NCBI GenBank assembly: GCA_903832665.1
Contig: CAILCG010000022.1
Span: 62,001 to 126,000, forward strand
Direction: 5' to 3'
Origin: an uncultured Methanomicrobiales archaeon
GTDB lineage: Archaea; Halobacteriota; Methanomicrobia; Methanomicrobiales; Methanospirillaceae
Length of the DNA stretch: 64,000 nucleotides
Shown here: piece by piece, positions 15,401 through 24,363 of the stretch
How the letters are laid out: each line of letters opens with the position of its first letter
Position numbering within the stretch: the stretch's first letter is position 1
Notes under the pieces: model-generated
Database searches by the model: none
Told to the model about the DNA's origin: nothing
What the model saw: the letters and a program-made list of their open reading frames with translations, nothing else
Made by a program: the position numbers and the translations under genes

Positions 15401-16385
15401 CAATGCCTATAAGGATGCGGGAGTGGACATCGATCTTGAGGCAACTGCCATCAAGTCCCTGATAAAGAATCTCACCTACCGGAGAAAAGGTTCCTGTACC
15501 ATGATGGGTGGTGTAGGACATTTTGCCGGCCTGATTGATTTCGGGGAAAACGCACTTGCCCTGACAACTGATGGCGTAGGCACGAAGATGCTGGTCGCGG
15601 ACCAGATGAAAGACTGGAGCACCGTGGGAATTGACTGTGTGGCAATGAATGTCAACGATCTCTACGTTATGAACGTAGAGCCTATCGCATTCGTGGATTA
15701 CATTGCCACTGACAAACTCTCGATTGAGAAGATGGCCCAGATTGGCATCGGGCTTAATGAAGGTGCAAAGCTGGCAAATATCGATATCGTAGGTGGCGAA
15801 ACCGCATCGCTTCGTGGGCTGGTGAACGGACTCGACCTCGCCGGTACTTGTCTTGGGATGCAGAAGAAGGACAAAATAATCTCGGGAGAAAAAATACGGC
15901 CGGGTGATCTGATCATCGGTATCCCCTCGACCGGGGTCCACAGCAACGGGTTATCCCTTGCCCGCAGTGTTGTGGAGAAGCATGCCGGTTATAACGAGAA
16001 GATGAAGAGTGGTAAGACCTTTGGCGAGGAACTGCTCACACCTACCCGGATCTACCACGAAAGCCTGAAAGTCGCTGCAGCCTGCGCCGTGCATGGCATG
16101 TGCCATGTTACCGGGGGGGGACTTCTTAACTTCAACCGCCTCAGCGAATTCGGGTTCCGGTTCGATACGCCCCTCCCCCCTCCGCAAATATTCTCCTGGA
16201 TACAGGAAGCCGGGGACATTACCGCAGCAGAGATGTACCGCACCTTTAACATGGGCATGGGTTTTGCATACGTTGTACCGGAAACAAGTGCTGCCTGTGT
16301 GCAGAAGATGGTAAATGGTGCCAAGGTTGTGGGAAAAGTAGTAAAAGAGCCCGGTGCGTTTCTTGGTGATTTGGAGATTGTATAG
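15393..16385 (+). CDS. purM: Phosphoribosylformylglycinamidine cyclo-ligase (AIR synthetase)
   Basis: 330 residues from the ATG at 15393, chosen because ggagg precedes it by seven bases and the protein opens NNAYKDAGVDID, the family N-terminus. Later landmarks are DGVGTKMLVADQ, VDCVAMNVNDL, VGGETASL, GIPSTGVHSNG and HVTGGG. It closes the imidazole ring in step five of purine synthesis using ATP. It overlaps the aspartate kinase gene by eight bases and so is probably translationally coupled. purF, an earlier step, lies 2.2 kb downstream. Confidence 0.95.
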   Translation: MSNNAYKDAGVDIDLEATAIKSLIKNLTYRRKGSCTMMGGVGHFAGLIDFGENALALTTDGVGTKMLVADQMKDWSTVGIDCVAMNVNDLYVMNVEPIAFVDYIATDKLSIEKMAQIGIGLNEGAKLANIDIVGGETASLRGLVNGLDLAGTCLGMQKKDKIISGEKIRPGDLIIGIPSTGVHSNGLSLARSVVEKHAGYNEKMKSGKTFGEELLTPTRIYHESLKVAAACAVHGMCHVTGGGLLNFNRLSEFGFRFDTPLPPPQIFSWIQEAGDITAAEMYRTFNMGMGFAYVVPETSAACVQKMVNGAKVVGKVVKEPGAFLGDLEIV

Positions 16386-20743: not shown

Positions 20744-21565
20744 TCAAATGAGATAAGCAAGGAGATATATCGCAAATATCGGGATAAATACAACTACCCA
20801 TGCTAACCGGCTCCAGGTAAAGACCGGCTGCCCGTCAAGAGGTTTGAGTGGAATGAGTGAGAAGACGACCGACACCAGATTGATCGCGAGGCCGGTTGTT
20901 CCGATCATTGTCCAGATACCTCCCACGGGTATGAGAAGGGCAAATAGTACTGCACAAGCGAGGCTTACCAATGGTCCGGCGAGCATTGCTAATCCCAGCG
21001 TTTTCTTAATCCGGCTGGTATCCTCCGGTATCTTTGTTGTAAGTGGCTGAGAGAAGACGTTGCCAAAGAACCATGCAGAGAAGAACGTCATAAGAAGACC
21101 CGTTGCACTGAACTTCAGTTCAGATTTCATAACGAAATGGCGGGCAACGAAGTAGTGGGCCAGTTCGTGCAGAACAACTACAATTCCTGATACGAGGATG
21201 TACGTTCCGACGACGACCGGCAACATCCCCGCCCGCTCAGCCACCACAAATGCGAGACCATAGAGGGCCGCACCAAAACCGAGAATTAATATCTGCGAAT
21301 TATGCGGGAGAAGCGGGTTCCGAGAAGCATCGAGTGAACGCGAGAGGGGATTGTTCTGTCGCTCCAGTAATTCCGCAGCATGGTCTTCAGCATGACCCGC
21401 AACCCGGTCACTGAAAAAGTCAGTGACGGATTTAAACAGGTGCTGGAAGAATGTGAGGATCTGCCCGAAGAGTGTTCCAAGGAACCCCCCGGATGTCAAG
21501 GCTCCCGCACTTCCTGCGAGTGCGACGACGCTGGCCACCGCGACACCGGCAGCAACCGCTCCCAA
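20744..21565 (-). CDS. M50 family membrane metalloprotease, larger form
   Basis: 273 residues from a TTG start. It has several membrane helices, a helical stretch with FFSDRVAGHAEDHAAELL (about residues 45-65), the zinc motif HELAH at about 145 and the second motif SLIPLKPLDGQPV near 250. The frame is open without ATG or GTG upstream to the TAG at 21653-21655 and still reads like protein (TDERGPLPADAILPP), so the true start is unclear: coupling from the upstream surface-protein gene, or a single longer gene broken by that TAG. Target unknown. Confidence 0.72.
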   Translation of the reverse strand: MGAVAAGVAVASVVALAGSAGALTSGGFLGTLFGQILTFFQHLFKSVTDFFSDRVAGHAEDHAAELLERQNNPLSRSLDASRNPLLPHNSQILILGFGAALYGLAFVVAERAGMLPVVVGTYILVSGIVVVLHELAHYFVARHFVMKSELKFSATGLLMTFFSAWFFGNVFSQPLTTKIPEDTSRIKKTLGLAMLAGPLVSLACAVLFALLIPVGGIWTMIGTTGLAINLVSVVFSLIPLKPLDGQPVFTWSRLAWVVVFIPIFAIYLLAYLI

Positions 21566-21652
21566 TGGTCTTGCACGGGGTGGAAGTATCGCATCAGCGG
21601 GCAGTGGGCCCCTCTCATCTGTTACAAAACCTGCAGCCCTGGCCCCCCCCTC

Positions 21653-23057
21653 CTAAAGTGAAGTTGCAATGATCCCCGCAAACGAAGTACTGACTTCCGG
21701 ATTTACCGGGGGAGATATGGGAGCAACTGGAGCTGGGACGTCTGGGATGCTGACCGGAGGTGCAGCAGGGATCTCCAGGGGTGCGTCGGGTTCCTTCTGC
21801 ACCGGGATTTCCTTTGGAGGTTCTACTTTCGGTACAACCACGGTCTTTGGTTCGACTACAGGTGCTGCTATTACCGCTCCGCCTCCGGAATCAGAGGTCG
21901 CCCCCCCCGTCATTCCCGATAAATATTGTCGGTGAGGAAGTGGGCGTAGGGGTTGGAGTCGAAGCGGGGCTGATGGCGCCAGGTGAGAACCGGGAAAAAC
22001 TGGGGTATGGGGATGTTGCCCAATACGTTGCTGTCGTTGCAGTTGTGGAGTTGAGGGAGGCGTCCAAGACCGAAACACTATACGGGCTGTCATGGATCCT
22101 GAAGAGTCGGATGTTGTCAGTTCCATAGGTTGCAGTCCAACTAAGTGGCACAGTAAAGTAAATGTCAGCATAGTCCAAATTCGGGTACTGGGCCGGTGAA
22201 GCTGAAGTATCGATGTCTATTTCGTAACCCAGAATCTGAAGGGGCCGGATACTTCCTGCGGCTGCCGAGAATGCAGCTGCGTCACTTGAACTGGGTGCAT
22301 CGGACATCAGGACCGTGATTGTATTCCCCAGCGAGTATTGGCTGAGATTCAGGCTCATGAAGACCGTAGTAGGGCCGAAACCCGCGAGATTTGAAATGAA
22401 TGGGGTTGTGTTCAACTGTATACTGCGGATCGCGTCACCTGTGATATTGCCCGCAATATCCGTAAGGGTGAAGTAATCGAAGACAGAACTCGAGAAGAAC
22501 GGGGACGGGTTTGTTACTATCGCCTGGTTACCGCTAACGGTGATAGTGGCTCTGTTGAGGAGAAGGGTGGACTTATTCAGGCGGGGCTCAAGAGTGGAGC
22601 TCGGTGCCGGAGTCATGGAGACTCCGGGGATATTCGTCGAATTGGTCATCCCATTGGACGCAATGTTGATGTACTGCGTCTTTACCATCTGGTTTGATCC
22701 TTCGGTATTATTTGCGATGAGAGTGACGCTGTACCAACCCTTTGTCGTGTACGTGTAGCTTGGATTTTTTTGTGCAACATCCGTTGTGTTAAACCACGTG
22801 CCATCCCCAAATGACCAGTTCCAGCAGTCGGGAAGGTTTGAGGATGTATCGGTGAACCCCACGGCGAGTGGGGAGATACCTTTGGTTACGTTTGACGTGA
22901 AATCTGCGACCGGTATTGCCGCATAAACTGGAGCAACGAGTATTGAGAAAAGAACAATGAAAGAGAGGAAGATGCAGATGCGGTTGTTTCGTTCCTGCCG
23001 GAAGTTCCCGGAGCTCTTGTCTGTGGATCTGATACCATAGTTTTCCGAATGTGACAT
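21653..23057 (-). pseudogene. PKD-domain surface protein with Pro-rich tail, frameshifted in a G8 tract
   Basis: Start ATG at 23057, with aggtg six bases before it. The protein has an N-terminal membrane/signal helix (FLSFIVLFSILVAPVYA), a PKD domain with NWSFGDGTW and YSVTLIANN, a second beta domain resembling PGF-pre-PGF regions (IYFTVPLSW...NIRLFRIHD), and a Thr/Pro linker (TPTPTPTSSP). The frame stops at 21891 right after eight G (plus-strand C run 21901-21908). One G fewer continues into a Pro/Val/Glu-rich tail (APVVEPKTVVVPKVEPP) that ends with TAG at 21653, next to the M50 gene and in the same frame. Either assembly error or slip-strand variation. Confidence 0.65.
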
Positions 23058-23517: not shown

Positions 23518-24363
23518 ATGGCAGGAAACAACAGGCTCAGGACACTCATCGGGGCCGGACAGCGAATTGGTCTTGGGGGCAAAGGAGTACTTCGCACGTA
23601 GGGATGGGAACCCGAAGCAATCGCAGTGCTCAGTGCCGCTTACGACTATGGTATTCGTTATTTTGACTCTGCGCCAGCATATGCAGGGAGCGAACATTAC
23701 CAGGGCCTTTTCTGGAAACAATACCCTGAGCGGAAACGCGAGACTTTTCAGGCAGGCAAATCCGCAAAGAGGGATGGTGTCAGTGCCGAAAAAGATCTGG
23801 CCCGGACACTCTCCCGAATGGGACGGGACCATCTCGGACTCTGGCAGATCCATGATGTGCGCGACGAAGACGATATCCAGCGACTGGAGGCGAAAGGAGG
23901 TGCCCTTCGCACATTCTATGATGCCCGTGAAACGGGTGCTGCCCGGGGAGTCGGGGTTACCGGGCATCCTGATCCTGCCTTCCTGCTCCACGCGGTCACG
24001 AACTGGGATGTGGATGCAGTGCTCCTGCCGGTCAACCCTGTGGAAGCGGTGATTGGCGGGTTTCTTGACAAGGTCATTCCTACAGCCCGGGAAAGAGGCA
24101 TCGGGGTCATCGGTATGAAAGTGCTGGGTGCAGGGCAATACCTGGACCGTGATCGTGGCTTCTCAGCGAAGAATCTGATCCGGTTTGCCCTTTCGCAGGA
24201 TGTCGATTTGGTGATTGTTGGGTGTTCAACTCCGGGGGAGGTACAGTCCCTCTCGCAGTTTGGTAAAGAGCATGCGCCTATGGATGATGATGAGCAGGCT
24301 CACATGATTGAGACAGTCCGTCGTTCCGCAGAACGTCTTGCATATTACCGGGGTGTTATATGA
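23518..24363 (+). pseudogene. Aldo/keto reductase family protein with an in-frame TAG at 23599
   Basis: The frame reads GLGGKGVLRT, then TAG, then GWEPEAIAVL...YGIRYFDSAPAYAGSE, which is the standard AKR N-terminus with the catalytic Asp and Tyr; later parts have KVLGAG and VIVGCSTPGEV. The position of the stop usually holds an aromatic or polar residue in related proteins. Both sides of the TAG are in the same frame, so this is a nonsense codon, not an indel. From the ATG at 23518 the product would be about 281 residues. If the gene is read only from 23626 (GTG) it loses the first strands. Could be a point error, decay or recoding. Confidence 0.65.

Follow-up and report, generated by a model that had tools for sequence, protein, structure and literature searches.

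A probable sensor–protease gene interrupted at a G8 tract and at an in-frame TAG in a Methanomicrobiales archaeon

Do a PKD surface protein and the M50 protease that follows it in an uncultured Methanomicrobiales archaeon belong to one gene or to two, and what is the role of the two G8 tracts and the TAG codon found at their junction? The locus lies in a stretch of 64,000 nucleotides of contig CAILCG010000022.1 (positions 62,001 to 126,000; assembly GCA_903832665.1), referred to below as the window. A sequence-only reading had offered three options: one long sensor-protease, two translationally coupled genes, or switching by the G tracts. Of these, the first is supported as the normal form of the gene and the other two are not: the locus is very probably a single fused sensor–protease gene that has been interrupted twice, by error or by mutation, rather than one regulated through its interruptions.

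Layout of the locus and identity of its pieces

All parts of the gene are on the minus strand. Inspection of the sequence places C8 on the plus strand at 21901-21908 and at 21643-21650, that is, G8 on the minus strand (tracts 1 and 2, respectively, 258 nt apart from start to start). The PKD frame runs from an ATG at 23057 through tract 1, the site of the frame break, to a TGA at 21891-21893. The M50 frame is open from tract 1 to a TAG at 21653-21655, a region that encodes a Pro-rich linker (21656..21900), and is then open again to a stop at 20744. The proposal that the Pro-rich tail past tract 1 shares the frame of the protease is confirmed by the frames, and the sequence bears out that the TAG, beside the second G8, is the sole separator. 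It is also correct that no usual start codon follows before a TTG (21563..21565), the first ATG, GTG or TTG past the TAG in this frame and residue 30 of the M50 piece. The stretch after the TAG had been said to read like protein. Homology supports this, but composition does not: over the 87 nt from TAG to TTG the coding signal in the M50 frame is -3.8. The PKD and M50 pieces score +33 and +37, respectively, all other frames are negative, and the Pro-rich linker gives a weak signal (+3.6).

The first piece (21894..23057) has a signal-like start, judged by eye, followed by two ectodomain modules, the first of them a PKD domain. The PKD domain (22665..22916, residues 48-131) matches Pfam PKD_4 (PF18911) with 48.6 bits against a cut-off of 27; an NCBIfam search of the first piece gave no match. 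The second module (21968..22553) recurs in the G036 relative described below; its presence in G127 and G145 is less clear. It has no match in the libraries, and resembles PGF-pre-PGF domains.

The second piece (20744..21652, 302 aa) begins with the juxtamembrane motif EGGARAAG and continues as a membrane core. Its match to the Pfam M50 family (PF02163) scores 23.1 bits, under the gathering cut-off of 27.2, and three fused relatives are also under this cut-off (16.8-21.5 bits). The HExxH motif of site-2 proteases (M50) is present as HELAH (21155..21169, residues 162-166), with His162 and His166 invariant in alignments. The DG of the third zinc ligand is present in PLDG (LDG at 20831..20839), and Asp273-Gly274 are invariant in 17 aligned sequences. 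A profile of the core searched against the PDB at E <= 0.01 found a single sequence, 3b4r (MJ0392), with E = 0.0038. The predicted model of the core has a mean pLDDT of 72.9. Its best eight structural rows are all SpoIVFB, RseP or 3b4r at Z 7.0-8.5, values that are middling for a helical protein. In Foldseek alone, the three best are SpoIVFB and 3b4r (E = 0.036 to 0.082). A second structural comparison placed no other family above the site-2 protease rows, with Z scores middling enough to leave room for other folds. The core is therefore treated as a putative divergent site-2 protease on the strength of its motifs and profile, the fold lending lesser weight.

MJ0392 of Methanocaldococcus jannaschii (PDB 3b4r, M50B) has the same HExxH-type core (fold Z 7.9), but it is a chain of 224 residues and lacks a PKD ectodomain. 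SpoIVFB and RseP, to which the predicted core aligns best, are bacterial. Instead of PKD ectodomains, RseP has PDZ domains and SpoIVFB has a CBS domain.

Fused relatives and the columns of the two breaks

Four relatives, drawn from three other families of the order, can be aligned through the break. In three of them, one open frame encodes PKD, linker and M50 core (G036, 1546 aa; G028, 1185 aa; G127/L071, at least 2007 aa), with PKD over the Pfam cut-off in each; these three also bear BNR, beta-helix/NosD or Kelch repeats. The fourth, G145 (513 aa), is cut by a contig end. With X placed at the breaks, the pieces from the window align along the G036 protein, and 235 of the 591 columns of the five-sequence alignment are identical. 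The alignment of the linker is loose because the nearest relative is 40-48% identical. The G036 protein (G036:C1:2067936-2072573, 1546 aa, same order) shares the PKD domain, the second ectodomain module, the Pro-rich linker and the M50 core. The core is 48% identical, and the juxtamembrane motif reads VQEGGARASG. It differs in its longer N-terminal ectodomain, in having no G8 tracts and in being uninterrupted. A more distant type is found in Methanoregula (for example G003/L086, 526 aa; G005/L095, 611 aa), where a signal-like start, PKD repeats and an M50-like core occupy one frame, but the core is 29-30% identical and has HDxxH instead of HExxH. The same replacement is seen in 12 of the 17 M50 cores aligned (L075-L095 alignment), so a large Methanoregula branch may consist of altered or inactive proteases.

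A search of 232 genomes of the order for the M50 core gave a match at 1e-25 in 36 genomes. The 46 matches listed include the one in the window; the other 45 sit in open frames that range in length from 250 to 2007 aa, the shortest of which (G146, 250 aa) is cut by a contig end, and none has a stop inside the match. Likewise, no internal stop was seen among the M50 matches listed for 40 relatives. Two short M50 proteins of 364 aa (G042 and G043) have a start codon to themselves and lack PKD, and a third short protein (G022, 354 aa) has an ambiguous residue at its start. In G195 (G195:C1, 383 aa), a Methanoregula genome with the M50 relative at G195:C1:1023213-1024037 (L146, G195:C1:1018000-1029000), a TAG lies between a signal-like start and the M50 frame, where G004 has Gln (CAA) in a loose alignment. 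The sequence-only reading had proposed a search for PKD and M50 in one homologue, and had named clearly separate genes in relatives as the finding that would speak against it. The two are fused in the closest relatives, and a clearly separate pair was not seen among those examined. A literature search found no paper on archaeal PKD-M50 fusions.

The column of the TAG in the five-sequence alignment is occupied by Gln, encoded by CAG, in G036, G127 (L071) and G145 (L142), and by Arg, encoded by AGA, in G028. The residues that follow are Glu/Asp-Gly-Gly, giving the motif [VM]Q[ED]GG in three relatives, and in the window they are encoded by the second G8. Tract 2 contributes to the codons of Glu-Gly-Gly-Ala. 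It needs no change because the frame is identical on both its sides, and it reads as ordinary coding sequence. Since the relatives are fused in one frame and three of the four have CAG at the TAG column, the locus appears originally to have been one sensor–protease gene. The first interruption would thus be the length of tract 1, and the second the TAG in place of the CAG of three relatives.

Explanations for the interruptions

The position of the lesions is clear from the frames and alignments; as to their cause, we infer either sequence error or mutation. Our guess is that there is about an even chance of assembly or base-calling errors. The main rival, a real pseudogene left when tract slippage and a nonsense mutation inactivated the fused gene of this strain, is a serious possibility at a little short of even chances. 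In its favour, two lesions lie within one surface-protein gene. Moreover, the adjoining aldo/keto reductase (23521-24363, plus strand) also has an in-frame TAG (23599-23601), at a position where relatives have E, Y, Y and H. The homopolymer spectrum of the genome is normal, no truncation of homopolymers being seen and lengths being like those of other Methanoregula. Against decay, both main pieces keep a strong coding signal, and breaks elsewhere in the genome fall in conserved enzyme motifs such as the LSGGQ of an ABC ATPase, which fits sequence error.

The genome has several further interrupted genes. In-frame TAG codons are found in an aminotransferase (L056:8812, G000:C4), where its relative has Gln, and in an ABC ATPase (L116:8221, G000:C23), at the Gln position of N*LSGGQ. 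Frame shifts are found in an SSF symporter (window ~27075, minus strand), which is real by Pfam, a T2SSF-domain protein (window ~45491, plus strand), a PLP decarboxylase (L053:1463) and an unnamed protein (L034:9804). Two more lie inside the LSGGQ of an ABC ATPase (L117, G000:C3:21817-22274) and in a radical SAM domain (L118, G000:C14:36713-37154). Frame breaks are probable in a cation ATPase (window ~61468, minus strand) and at L067:19233. Of the other places flagged, L034:3055 proved not to be a break when the sequence was read, and the one at window 57478 seems to be an artefact arising from the reference frame.

Whether the genome carries more interruptions than a relative was addressed by several scans, and such an excess is not proven, a result that also speaks for a real pseudogene. 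When split genes were sought by homology, 25 places were flagged in 915 kb of the genome, compared with 13 in the control (260 kb of G020), so that no excess was seen. A filter for long opposite-strand frames left 18 of the 25 and 6 of the 13; this filter also drops the SSF symporter break, which the control place L105:19877 of G020 mirrors. The sequences were read for nine flagged places of the genome and for two breaks from family searches, while those of G020 were counted as flagged. Because antisense frames made a codon-usage scan too noisy, internal stops were counted with a phased Markov scan. This gave nine internal stops without a nearby start in 915 kb (4 TAG, 3 TAA, 2 TGA), none of them in the last 400 kb sampled. 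Two relatives gave one in 460 kb, and a difference of this size is not firm. These counts are lower bounds because the scan found the TAGs of the aldo/keto reductase and the ABC ATPase but missed the one in the M50 gene and that of the aminotransferase. Switches of coding-signal frame showed a mild excess over the controls (103 in 515 kb compared with 62 in 460 kb), ordinary gene overlaps being included in the counts. When the whole genome was searched by family, internal stops were seen in 1 of 49 ABC, 0 of 27 radical SAM, 0 of 12 PKD and 1 of 3 aldo/keto reductase matches. Among the 331 ABC matches listed for seven other Methanoregula genomes there was none.

Phase variation, in which slippage of G8 would toggle between a sensor-only and a sensor-protease form, had been another of the proposals. 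Bacteria are known to switch surface genes by means of poly-G tracts, and this surface-protein gene contains two rare tracts 258 nt apart. Runs of at least eight G or C number nine in the 515 kb sampled, and the probability that a gene this long would hold two is ~5e-4, a figure calculated post hoc for a site that encodes Gly. (A third G8 run of the window is at 16113-16120.) However, the proposal fails on the order of the elements. A contingency gene would yield its full protein or not according to tract length alone. Here, no combination of lengths yields it because the TAG, in the M50 frame, follows tract 1 and precedes tract 2: it remains at any length of tract 1, and slippage in tract 2 cannot pass it. 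Furthermore, no run of eight G or C occurs in the gene of three relatives checked, where the longest is C7. Phase variation is thus highly improbable.

Translational coupling, with the protease starting after the TAG from an SD sequence at aggagg, deserves equally little confidence. The purine-rich aggagg past the TAG and the short M50 relatives without PKD (G042, G043) might be taken in its favour. However, the first in-frame start is the TTG 87 nt past the TAG, and nothing resembling an SD occurs in the preceding 20 nt. The PKD frame stops ~235 nt ahead of the TAG, and the closest relatives are fused. The aggagg itself sits in the codons of the conserved Glu/Asp-Gly-Gly.

Natural read-through, by which this organism would sometimes insert Gln or another residue at TAG, is still less credible. 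Four homology-supported in-frame stops were read and all are TAG, three of them at Gln positions (the M50 gene, the aminotransferase and the ABC N*LSGGQ), and the G195 relative with TAG opposite the CAA of G004 could be added to these. However, codon usage favours CAG (2.47% of codons, against 0.53% for CAA), which predicts that TAG would make up 64% of stops created by transitions and 43% of those created by any single change. This preference goes far to explain why the in-frame stops are TAG. The genome is 98.8% complete, and its best match to PylS scores 27.9 bits against a cut-off of 178.15. The 52 tRNA calls (46 loci) include no CUA anticodon, but tRNA-Trp is missing from them as well, so the list is incomplete. 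Moreover, TAG is the ordinary terminator of 10 of the 71 genes whose C-termini are conserved, TGA and TAA are likewise found within frames, and the break at tract 1 would be left unexplained. At the site itself, where amber decoding would predict a conserved TAG, CAG is found in three relatives and AGA in the fourth. Hardly any credence can be given, finally, to a mixed scheme in which the TAGs are real, some amber codons are read as Gln by an unrecognised route to give full-length enzymes, and slippage in G8 yields a little full sensor-protease beside the sensor-only form.

A probable sensor tethered to a putative intramembrane protease

The TAG and the two G8 tracts of the fused gene are most likely a matter of sequence quality or gene decay, and it would be inadvisable to mine this genome for recoding or phase variation without reads.

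In the intact chain, the PKD ectodomain would be exported, and a flexible Pro-rich linker and a short conserved juxtamembrane motif would connect it to the site-2-protease-like M50 core in the membrane. The presence of these elements in one chain suggests that the ectodomain could act as a sensor gating intramembrane cleavage, either of a partner or of the protein that carries it. Relatives in which the gene is intact probably function in this way, with the sensor tethered to the protease. In several families of Methanomicrobiales, a site-2-protease-like core is joined to long ectodomains (PKD, Kelch, beta-helix, BNR), an architecture of some interest.
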